This document shows positions 37,687 to 40,120 of a DNA stretch of 64,000 nt, piece by piece (the first letter of the stretch is position 1; the number at the start of each line of letters is the position of its first letter). The notes under the pieces were generated by a model. That model saw only the letters and a list, made by a program, of their open reading frames with translations, was not told the origin of the DNA and did not search any database. Source of the DNA: Flavobacteriaceae bacterium (lineage in GTDB: Bacteria > Bacteroidota > Bacteroidia > Flavobacteriales > Flavobacteriaceae); NCBI GenBank assembly GCA_018646605.1, contig JABGUL010000036.1, positions 1 through 64,000 of the forward strand, read 5' to 3'. Made by a program: the position numbers and the translations under genes.

Positions 37687-38634
37687 TCACTTCAATAGCC
37701 CTAGCGCAACGAGGCGTTGGTGTAAGAAAGTTCCAGCATCGATATCTTCATATTTTTTTGGATGTGCTGCATCAATCATTTGTGGTAAACAATTTAATGG
37801 CATTTGAGGAATTGGATGCATGAAAAAGGGCAGAGAGTAGCGTGCATTTCCCCATTCTTCAGGGGGTGGATTTACCACGCGGTGAATGGTAGAGGGCAAA
37901 TGATTGTTCGTGAGCCTTGAAAGCATATCACCAATGTTAATCATCAGTTCATCGGGTCCAGCAATGGCATCAATCCATTCTTGGTTTCTGTTGAGAACTT
38001 GTAAGCCTCCTCCTTGAGATCCCATCAATAGGGTAATTAAATTGATATCTCCATGGGCAGCAGCACGCTCCGCTTCATTGGGTGCTTTGGTGATAGGTGG
38101 ATAGTGAATTGCTCGGAGGATAGAATTCCCCTCACGGATATAAGAGTCAAAATAAAACGCATCCAGCTCGAGATATAAAGCAATAGCCTGCAGTAAAACC
38201 TCAGCTGTTTTCTCTAATTTTTTGTAGACTTCATTCCCTACTTTATTAAAATTCTGAAGCTCTTTTACGTGGATGTTATTGGGGTAAATTCCTTTCAGCT
38301 TCGGCTGGGCGTCAAGGTCTTGCCCAAAATGCCAAAACTCCTTGAGATCGCCAGTAGTTCTCCCTTCAGCATGTTCTTTTCCAAAGCCAGTGTAGCCACG
38401 TTGACCCCCACCCCCTTGAATTTCATAAGCTTCTTTGGTTTTTGTAGGCAAAGCAAAAAAGGTTTTGATCTCACGGTATAAATCTTCTTGAAGTTTTTCC
38501 TCTAAAAAATGCCCTTTTAATGCTAGGAAGCCAATTTCTTTGAAAGAAGCACCTACGTGCTGGACAAAGGCTGCCTTACGGTCGGGATCTTCAGAAAGAA
38601 AGTCGTTAAGGTTTGCTTGTGGAATGTGTTGCAT
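37687..38634 (-). CDS. 2-oxoglutarate/Fe(II) dioxygenase, isopenicillin-N-synthase family
   Basis: A 315-residue non-heme iron dioxygenase. The double-stranded beta-helix carries the metal ligands His and Asp in AAHGDINLITLL, the distal His in STIHRVVNPP, and the co-substrate Arg in NARYSLPFF (RxS). A conserved IPN-synthase-like N-terminal domain precedes it. The substrate is unknown; relatives act on antibiotics, amino acids, gibberellin-like compounds and nucleobases. Its start lies 13 nt after a strong terminator preceded by a 21-codon leader ORF, so expression probably depends on read-through. Confidence 0.83.
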   Translation of the reverse strand: MQHIPQANLNDFLSEDPDRKAAFVQHVGASFKEIGFLALKGHFLEEKLQEDLYREIKTFFALPTKTKEAYEIQGGGGQRGYTGFGKEHAEGRTTGDLKEFWHFGQDLDAQPKLKGIYPNNIHVKELQNFNKVGNEVYKKLEKTAEVLLQAIALYLELDAFYFDSYIREGNSILRAIHYPPITKAPNEAERAAAHGDINLITLLMGSQGGGLQVLNRNQEWIDAIAGPDELMINIGDMLSRLTNNHLPSTIHRVVNPPPEEWGNARYSLPFFMHPIPQMPLNCLPQMIDAAHPKKYEDIDAGTFLHQRLVALGLLK

Positions 38635-38646
38635 GGAAAATAAATT

Positions 38647-38674
38647 AAAAAAAGCGGACCCATCGGTCCGCTTT
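38647..38674 (-). terminator. Strong intrinsic terminator in the dioxygenase leader
   Basis: On the minus strand AAAGCGGACC pairs perfectly with GGTCCGCTTT around GATG (stem 38674-38651), followed by seven T in all. It stands between the leader ORF stop and the dioxygenase ATG, leaving no room for a second promoter. Confidence 0.85.
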
Positions 38675-38690
38675 GTATAGATAAGGAAAG

Positions 38691-38756
38691 TTACAGTGGC
38701 CCTACTAGCGTAGGTGCCTGCTGTTCACGATTCCTCAAATGATTTTCATAAAACAT
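38691..38756 (-). CDS. 21-residue leader peptide ORF
   Basis: ATG to TAA on the minus strand encodes 21 residues beginning MFYENHLRNREQQ and ending TLVGPL. A perfect Shine-Dalgarno with 6-nt spacing precedes it, which is exceptional in this AT-rich flavobacterium. The 3' third of the ORF overlaps an RNA hairpin (CCTAC-GCTA-GTAGG). It ends 16 nt before the terminator stem. I know of no described peptide with this sequence. Its role is probably regulatory, through ribosome position, though a short functional peptide is possible. Confidence 0.6.
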   Translation of the reverse strand: MFYENHLRNREQQAPTLVGPL

Positions 38757-38762
38757 AAGACA

Positions 38763-38772
38763 CCTCCTTTCT
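38763..38772 (-). promoter_or_regulatory. Perfect Shine-Dalgarno sequence
   Basis: AGAAAGGAGGTG on the minus strand (38772-38761) is the complement of the 16S rRNA 3' end. The AGGAGG core is 6 nt from the leader ATG. Most other genes in the window have only A-rich leaders, so this one stands out. Confidence 0.8.
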
Positions 38773-38789
38773 ACATTAAATTAAACTTA

Positions 38790-38803
38790 GCTGTTGTCAC
38801 AGC
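38790..38803 (-). promoter_or_regulatory. Leader hairpin
   Basis: GCTGT/ACAGC makes a 5-bp stem with a 4-nt loop between the predicted transcription start and the Shine-Dalgarno of the leader ORF. Confidence 0.4.
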
Positions 38804-38818
38804 CCTAACTTCTCATCT

Positions 38819-38826
38819 CAAATATA
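38819..38826 (-). promoter_or_regulatory. -7 box of the leader-dioxygenase transcript
   Basis: TATATTTG on the minus strand (38826-38819) matches TAnnTTTG exactly. Transcription would begin near 38812, just beyond the antiporter stop codon. No good -33 box is visible. Confidence 0.5.
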
Positions 38827-38851: not shown

Positions 38852-40120
38852 TTATTTTACAATTTTTTTCAACGTTAATCCCTGAACTAAAATGGTAAAT
38901 AAAACAACGGCATACGTTAGGATTAAGATTAGTTCTTTCCCACTTCCAATGGAATCGGGTAGGTTTAATGCTAAAGCAATACTGAGTCCACCCCGCAAAC
39001 CTCCCCAGGTGATAATAAGGGCGGTATTTTTTTCGAATTTCTTTTTAAAGGAAAGAATTGAAATGGGTACAAACACACCAATACCTCTTGACAGTACAAC
39101 CAGCAAAATAACCAATACTATGATGAGTAAATAGGCGGCATCAAAATTTTGAAGGATGGGAATAATCTCCAAGCCTATTAAAATAAATAGAATCGCATTT
39201 AGGGTTTCATCCAATAGATGCCAAAACTTGTAGACATAATCTCCCATTGCTTTTTGAACCCCATCTTCTTTTTTGTCTGTATCAATATTTTGATTCAGAA
39301 AGAGTCCCATAACGACAACTCCTAATACGGCAGAAAAATGAAATAAGTGGGAGATCACAGGAACCAAAAGAACAAGAGAAAGAGTAATTAAAACCTCTAA
39401 TTCTACATGTGTATTTTCTATGTATTTAACTAATTTCAATCCTAAATAACCCATTACAGCTCCCATAACAATTCCTCCTACTACCTCTTGAGCAAATAGG
39501 GCACCCACACTTTGTGCAGTTATGTTGTCAATTCCTTCTGCCTTGATGCTCAGAAGGGTTAAAAAAACAACGACCCCTATTCCGTCATTAAATAACGATT
39601 CCCCAGCAATTCTGGTTTCCGTTATTTTAGAAAGATTCATCTTTTTTACCATTGCTAGAACAGCAATAGGGTCTGTGGGGGCGATTAAAGCACCAAACAA
39701 CAAACAGTCTACATATCCAAGGCCTAATGAGGTCAAGCCGAACATGGGCTCTTGAACGAGCCAGTAAACACCGGTTCCTACAGCAAAGGTGGAAAAAAGA
39801 ACCCCAAAGGTGGCGAGTATTAAGATGGTCATTCTGTCTTTCAAGAGTTCATGGACATCCACACTGATGGCCCCAGCAAACAATAGGAAAGGAAGCATGA
39901 CATCGATTAATAATACACTGAAATCAAATTCTTTTGTGAGCTGCGTTACATATCCTAAAAAATCTGGAAAAATGAGCCCTGCTAGCATAATGATGAGCGA
40001 TAAAACAATCGCTAAGACCATTAAGCCAATAGTTTGAGGAAGCTTTAGAATCCTAAGGTTAATGATAGAAAAAATGGAAGCTAGAGAGAGTAAAAGTGTT
40101 GAGAGTTCAAGTAAATTCAT
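38852..40120 (-). CDS. Na+/H+ antiporter, NhaP/CPA1 family
   Basis: A 422-residue inner-membrane protein with about 12 helices. The family motifs ALIAPTDPIAVLAMVKKM and AGESLFNDGIGVVVFLTLL carry the Asp residues of the ion path, and ITWGGLRGGLSIALAL is the conserved helix near the end. It exchanges Na+ (or K+) for H+ and suits a marine cell. It stands alone, with ribE upstream on the same strand 26 nt away, possibly in one transcript. Confidence 0.87.
   Translation of the reverse strand: MNLLELSTLLLSLASIFSIINLRILKLPQTIGLMVLAIVLSLIIMLAGLIFPDFLGYVTQLTKEFDFSVLLIDVMLPFLLFAGAISVDVHELLKDRMTILILATFGVLFSTFAVGTGVYWLVQEPMFGLTSLGLGYVDCLLFGALIAPTDPIAVLAMVKKMNLSKITETRIAGESLFNDGIGVVVFLTLLSIKAEGIDNITAQSVGALFAQEVVGGIVMGAVMGYLGLKLVKYIENTHVELEVLITLSLVLLVPVISHLFHFSAVLGVVVMGLFLNQNIDTDKKEDGVQKAMGDYVYKFWHLLDETLNAILFILIGLEIIPILQNFDAAYLLIIVLVILLVVLSRGIGVFVPISILSFKKKFEKNTALIITWGGLRGGLSIALALNLPDSIGSGKELILILTYAVVLFTILVQGLTLKKIVK

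Follow-up and report, generated by a model that had tools for sequence, protein, structure and literature searches.

Leader-peptide attenuators are typified by those of trp and his. As inferred in Flavobacterium psychrophilum (PMC9723704), such devices combine a short ORF, hairpins within that ORF and a terminator just before a gene. Another arrangement is seen in marine cyanobacteria, where the Downstream-peptide or yfr6 RNA combines structure with a short conserved ORF and its conserved fold is thought to be the 5' UTR (PMC2864571). In the order Flavobacteriales the closest described case is rpsU, the gene for ribosomal protein bS21. In mRNAs of this order Shine-Dalgarno (SD) sequences occur less often than expected by chance (PMC9976891, section 32), the 3' tail of 16S rRNA is hidden in a bS21-bS18-bS6 pocket in the Bacteroidia, and F. 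johnsoniae ribosomes lacking bS21 read the extended SD of rpsU (PMC9976891). In the Flavobacteriales, that report concludes, SD control is confined to rpsU, and the portions of a review considered here (PMC12186496) name Flavobacterium only for the rpsU/bS21 work.

Here we describe an element that shares features with each of these systems. Like rpsU of F. johnsoniae, it has an exceptionally long SD:16S pairing, below -13 kcal/mol, in an order reported to avoid SDs (PMC9976891), yet it encodes no ribosomal protein and instead has an ORF of about 20 codons, set in a folded RNA that contains a tail-like segment and ends in a terminator of its own. It resembles the leader-peptide attenuators in its short ORF, in-ORF hairpins and terminator, and differs from them in having a variable or convergent downstream gene, no visible run of a single codon and no conserved antiterminator. 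With the yfr6 RNA it shares RNA structure, a short conserved ORF and occurrence in marine bacteria, but the lineage is another, the description of yfr6, in the parts relevant here, has no SD theme (PMC2864571), and the fold of the element spans the ORF and the 3' UTR.

Layout and distribution of the element

The element occupies 38826-38647 on the minus strand of the window (the whole stretch of 64,000 nucleotides analysed, from a Flavobacteriaceae bacterium) and is present as a single copy in an assembly of 1,982,515 bases in 44 contigs. All of its parts lie on that strand. A candidate -7 promoter box, TATATTTG, of the TAnnTTTG type (38819..38826) is followed by the hairpin P1, GCUGU-GACA-ACAGC (38790..38803), and by an extended SD (AGAAAGGAGGTG / AGAAAGGAGGUG in DNA; 38761..38772), the complement of the 16S 3' tail CACCUCCUUUCU. 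Six nucleotides separate its GGAGG from the ATG of a small ORF of 21 codons plus stop (MFYENHLRNREQQAPTLVGPL*; 38691..38756), which is recognized from sequence and conservation. Codons 7-9 hold the 5' arm of helix P2 (UGAGGAA; 38731..38737), which pairs with an arm beyond the stop codon, and the 3' end of the ORF up to the stop codon folds into the predicted hairpin P3 (38693..38724), supported by z-scores and arm covariation. Covariation and folding identify the segment UUCCUUAUC (38680..38688) as the 3' arm of P2 and, alternatively, as a partner of the SD. The element ends with the intrinsic terminator P4 and its T-run (38647..38674), the stem AAAGCGGACC-GATG-GGTCCGCTTT covering 38674-38651 and the T-run ending at 38647. 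The terminator loop C-GAUG-G was considered as a special signal and given little weight, the same loop being present in an unrelated-looking terminator (L186). On the same strand, a Na+/H+ antiporter gene (38852..40120; PF00999) lies upstream, and a 2OG-Fe(II) dioxygenase gene (37687..38634; PF14226 and PF03171), context rather than obligate partner, starts downstream with an ATG at 38634, 12 nt from the T-run.

A preliminary description of this locus had listed the -7 box, the small hairpin, the perfect SD with its 6-nt spacing, the 21-codon ORF and the terminator, and all of these are borne out by the sequence. Its in-ORF hairpin CCTAC-GCTA-GTAGG is also present, but it is the tip of the longer P3 (38724-38693), whose outer stem ACAG/CUGU is more widely shared than the tip; the latter, with a 3-nt insertion, occurs in 4 of 33 aligned copies.

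A blastn search of 100 genomes, the window's own included, located the element in 33 of 37 same-genus relatives and in one genome of another genus (G057). The four same-genus genomes in which blastn gave no match (G002, G011, G021 and G022) are assemblies of 56-82% completeness, and matches in G056 and G095 were rejected as short chance matches. Of 397 genomes of the family, representing 237 genera, the covariance model R1 found the element in 17, from 9 genera, with one copy each. One of these 17 (L056, in G347) is a decayed copy with concurrent changes in the SD, P1, P3, the UCCUU arm and the terminator loop. The recurrence within the genus and the covariance-model matches in the family argue that the parts of the element are not a product of chance. 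A pattern scan of the GTDB collection, which fixes CTGTGACAACAG and GAAAGGAGG and so builds in the constancy of both in its copies, returned 83 stretches, and the 80 with titles are all Flavobacteriales or Bacteroidetes assemblies, uncultured by title. Removal of identical copies reduced the 139 loci collected to 87 distinct elements. The preliminary description had proposed conservation in relatives as a check, and the ORF, the SD and the terminator are all conserved.

Beyond the family, neither R1 on 395 genomes of the order nor the model R2 on 395 order and 395 class genomes (overlapping samples) gave a convincing copy outside the window's own genome; six weak R2 matches in the order and class look like plain terminators by eye. 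Viral contigs contained 0 exact matches to the element pattern. These genome scans are strict filters that may miss diverged copies, and within their reach the element appears confined to a clade of small-genome flavobacteria (assemblies of 1.3-2.2 Mb among the R1 genomes), which we infer from isolate names to be mostly marine. Of the families in Rfam release 15 only a tRNA reaches its gathering score in the window, the best sub-threshold matches being MicX (19.2 bits, cut-off 75) and L20_leader (17.1 bits, cut-off 58.7). A literature search over titles and abstract openings, with subscription papers mostly and preprints wholly outside its scope, found no such RNA described.

The Shine-Dalgarno sequence and its relation to rpsU

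In four relatives, of which two belong to this genus, the 3' tail of the 16S rRNA reads ACACCUCCUUUCU(AGAG); these are the matches among 29 genomes searched, the window genome's own 16S not being one of them, and the mature 16S was assumed to end at UUUCU. For the SD of the element, the median pairing energy with this tail is -21.2 kcal/mol (range -21.3 to -14.0, 82 copies), most of the 82 having been found with a pattern requiring GAAAGGAGG or picked with AAAGGAGG. This set includes L052, L053 and the decayed L056, added by hand, and omits L057 and L074 (both with Ns), L061, L073, L082, L120 and L128; L067 lacks its 5' part, and L054 and L055, found by the model and with ORFs of 19 codons by eye, were left out of all structure and energy counts. 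The rpsU SD of the window genome pairs at -19.9 kcal/mol. Pairing stronger than -13 kcal/mol characterizes the extended SD of rpsU type, and since the element has it, the ORF would be expected to be read by tail-exposed ribosomes. The gene itself is not of that type, being an ORF of about 20 codons and not one for bS21, with rpsU located elsewhere, at C10. The spacing between GGAGG and AUG also differs, at 5-7 nt in the element (82 copies) versus 7-10 nt in rpsU (by eye, in starts with GGAGG).

In a scan of the window genome covering ATG starts, GAAAGGAGG-N3-12-ATG occurs twice, at the element ORF and directly before rpsU. The looser form RAAAGGAGG...ATG gives 17 matches against 9 for a reversed-pattern control; the 15 other than these two pair with the 16S tail at -12.2 to -13.6 kcal/mol and were set aside as lying inside stop-free stretches of 145-459 codons on either strand. 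In seven fully listed genomes of the genus, the window's own included (G000, G003, G017, G030, G033, G034 and G036), GAAAGGAGGTG...ATG marks only the element ORF and rpsU. A further GAAAGGAGGTG...ATG in G375, outside the genus, was set aside because it falls inside, and near the end of, a 356-codon open stretch. The earlier suggestion that an SD is notable in a flavobacterium and points to anti-SD or ribosome availability is thus supported, as the genome yielded just one other perfect extended SD, that of rpsU.

To compare the two genes across lineages we read 33 rpsU starts, 31 of them from 30 element-bearing genomes. The rpsU SD is weaker than -14 kcal/mol in seven of these 31 (G016, G018, G026, G128, G141, G157 and G365), and the elements of all seven genomes, which were found through similarity of the whole element and not through an SD pattern, keep strong SDs (that of G141 by eye). 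In G141, G157 and G365 the element persists and rpsU is without an SD; the converse is seen in G347, where the element is decayed and rpsU keeps an SD at -17.4 kcal/mol. As the element is kept where rpsU has no SD, a circuit with rpsU is not general, and the element is not merely an accessory of rpsU autoregulation. The rpsU upstream regions with a lost or weakened extended SD (L148, L150, L154, L168, L170, L172 and L174) constitute a natural experiment on bS21 autoregulation in their own right. Two bS21-family matches within a single assembly were also observed, in G013 (L169, L179) and in G365, and possibly reflect contamination.

Helices and alternative pairing of the post-stop segment

Covariation of the stems in homologous regions had been put forward as a second check, and all four helices, P1-P4, covary. 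In the P4 stem, pairs carry two-sided changes in as many as 22 of 53 copies. In P1 the outermost pair is changed on both sides in 11 of 53 copies and the inner pairs in 0 or 1, a constancy that is partly built in because many copies were found with a pattern fixing P1. For P3, comparison of 75 distinct ORF 3' halves with dinucleotide shuffles gave a mean z of -2.16, with 61 of the 75 below -1 and two above 0 (L090 and the decayed L056), and the native fit of the two arms was bettered by none of 2000 swapped sets (4 of 5000 with 17 representatives).

P2 joins codons 7-9 (UUAAGGAA) to the post-stop UUCCUUA. Its energy over 67 distinct pairs is -8.47 kcal/mol for native and -6.94 kcal/mol for swapped arms, a difference reached in 0 of 2000 permutations and, with 20 representatives, in 0 of 5000. 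On alignment A3, in which six MSI-type rows (this type comprising L075, L090, L102, L105, L113, L123, L124 and L139) were shifted one column by hand, 384 of 477 cells pair, compared with 361.8 (sd 4.9) in swapped rows (0/2000). These permutation tests keep relatedness among the copies, which the sets of 20 and 17 representatives offset in part. Pairs 1-6 are unpaired in 7, 1, 1, 0, 4 and 1 of 53 copies and changed on both sides in 1, 0, 0, 1, 4 and 0, and pairs 7-9 are unpaired in 18, 23 and 38, so that P2 has a firm core and varies outside it. Its forms include AAGGAGU:ACUCCUU, AAAGAGU:ACUCUUU, AAGAAGU:ACUUCUU and AAGAAU:AUUCUU.

The same post-stop UCCUU can also pair with the SD, at -11.11 kcal/mol for native and -10.37 kcal/mol for swapped partners (0 of 2000; 18 of 5000 on 20 representatives). 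This covariation is weaker than that between the ORF arm and the post-stop segment, and it cannot show true compensation, since the SD is under constraint from the 16S tail and, in copies found by pattern, from the search. Of mononucleotide-shuffled post-stop sequences, 5.4% pair with the SD at least as well as the native median. RNAalifold placed SD:UCCUU together with GG:CC as its first helix, a solution to which we give less weight because it consists mainly of invariant columns and the covariation of the ORF-arm helix is clearer. In ensemble folding of the 82 copies the segment is paired with the ORF arm at a probability above 0.5 in 63, with the SD arm in 52 and with neither in 2; the window RNA is predicted to be SD-masked (0.99 versus 0.17). 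A sole fold with the SD left open was rejected in view of this masking and of the predicted median unpaired probability of GGAGG, 0.26. As both arms are commonly paired, the element RNA is by prediction bistable, its post-stop UCCUU bound to the SD in one state and to ORF codons 7-9 in the other. A close resemblance to the 16S 3' tail is seen in the post-stop segment (ACUCCUUUCUAA, CACUCCUUUUU and variants) of L107, L132 and the MSI-type copies.

Neighbouring genes and competing explanations

A TAnnTTT[GA] box is found within 60 nt upstream in 73 of 81 copies (65 with strict TAnnTTTG), compared with 23% of mononucleotide shuffles, and lies exactly 23 nt before the element start in 47. The eight copies that lack it are all MSI-type and have the variant TATATTCAT. 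The nearest upstream ORF is nhaP, the antiporter gene, in 64 of 87 copies, three more having no upstream ORF in the sequence available; in the other 20 of the 84 that have one, MSI-type copies included, the element adjoins other genes. Downstream, a simple ORF caller applied to 84 copies gave the dioxygenase in 44, another same-strand gene in 21, a convergent gene in 18 and the contig end in 1. With a promoter and an intrinsic terminator of its own, independent of its neighbours, the element is, as judged by comparison of the copies, a stand-alone small gene of about 165 nt, the transcription of which we infer.

The preliminary description had read the locus as a leader-peptide transcription attenuator of the dioxygenase, in which the state of the ribosome on the ORF chooses between termination and read-through. 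The conserved ORF, SD and terminator fit this, with a short ORF and its start signal (translation being predicted) upstream of the terminator, and in dioxygenase-linked copies the T-run lies 0-41 nt (median 12) before the start codon with a TAnnTTTG box between them in 2 of 42 copies. The short distance and the scarcity of boxes make read-through plausible where the dioxygenase follows, so that the claim that this gene must be read through the terminator stands as plausible, but the regulatory part attached to it is unsupported. No consistent co-directional gene follows: of 84 copies, 44 have the dioxygenase and 21 another gene, and a convergent gene, as in 18, is one that the terminator of the element cannot attenuate. 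Nor is an antiterminator conserved: a 5-nt complement to the terminator 5' arm occurs in 7 of 32 genus copies, on which ground antitermination by the ORF end (GGUCCGCU) was rejected, and the proposed pairing of a leader GGGCC with GGUCC of the terminator falls away, GGGCC being there in the window copy only (33 aligned, by eye). As the covarying P2 and P3 do not overlap P4, translation need not alter the terminator. Dioxygenase attenuation, on this comparison of copies, is not the conserved role of the element, and we regard the attenuator as very improbable. Taken with the SD pairing, the data suggest that a special class of ribosomes reads this small RNA or is captured by it, and that the RNA does not serve as a switch for the adjoining dioxygenase.

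What the ORF contributes is informative for the remaining alternatives. It has 20 or 21 codons in 81 of 87 distinct copies, the rest comprising one lost start (L073), one lost stop (L061, 25 codons), one copy with Ns and three cut by contig ends. Its length is held as the stop codon varies (TAA 58, TAG 18 and TGA 6 in 82 copies), and the genus alignment has a 3-nt indel in it. These features, and pN/pS values below 1 in all five groups (0.51, 0.36, 0.58, 0.67 and 0.81), would suit a micro-protein gene whose product is a peptide of 19-21 residues made only with bS21-less ribosomes, P1-P3 merely regulating its translation, and the ratios hint at some peptide constraint. RNA pairing alone constrains codons, however, the peptide of the window has no Pfam match, and peptides of different subclades (MFYENHLRN..., MSIEKNSKELIG..., MSYENSERSVS...) share little beyond their first residues, so that we hold this explanation to be rather unlikely. 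Our reading is that a translated frame of constant length is under selection and the peptide only weakly so, pN/pS being confounded by the RNA pairing. More doubtful still is a trans-acting base-pairing sRNA in which the ORF is incidental and the SD-like/UCCUU segment targets mRNAs, that of rpsU included. It would account for the stand-alone unit, the conserved linker and the 16S-like UCCUU, and sRNAs are known in flavobacteria (PMC9723704). Conservation of the ORF with its start, length and stop speaks against it, and such targets should be scarce given that SDs are rarer than chance in mRNAs of the order (PMC9976891, section 32). In one copy, L073, the start codon has become AGG in an intact RNA, which may be real or an assembly error and would fit an RNA function without translation.

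We therefore favour, at a probability of roughly 0.55, a stand-alone, bistable small mRNA engaged by SD-competent ribosomes. The RNA would carry an ORF of 19-21 codons behind an SD whose pairing with the 16S 3' tail can extend over up to 13 nt. By the precedent of rpsU, ordinary 30S subunits, with the tail tucked away by bS21-bS18-bS6, would ignore this SD and tail-exposed, bS21-less subunits would bind it. The post-stop UCCUU, resembling the tail, is predicted to mask the SD or, when paired with codons 7-9, to leave it freer; a tail-exposed ribosome would outcompete this internal mask, bind and translate through P2 and P3. The benefit most likely arises in trans, the RNA speculatively capturing or counting SD-competent ribosomes in competition with rpsU, and the output may be the peptide or RNA freed by translation. 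More tentatively, it could be a ribosome-capture RNA in the full sense. A copy of the 16S tail would mask its SD in cis, restricting binding to 30S subunits whose tail is free for lack of bS21; the RNA would park, count or compete for these, the ORF serving to turn the complex over. 6S RNA acts likewise on RNA polymerase. Where the dioxygenase adjoins the element, this gene is probably expressed by leaky read-through of the terminator.

The use of compositionally specialised ribosomes by bacteria, and their use for more than one gene, is debated. The two-arm switch would provide a compact reporter for testing the use of tail-exposed ribosomes. If the reading given here is true, the element would be a second SD-bearing gene, conserved in its clade and retaining its SD where rpsU has lost its own, and tail-exposed ribosomes would have another client in these flavobacteria.
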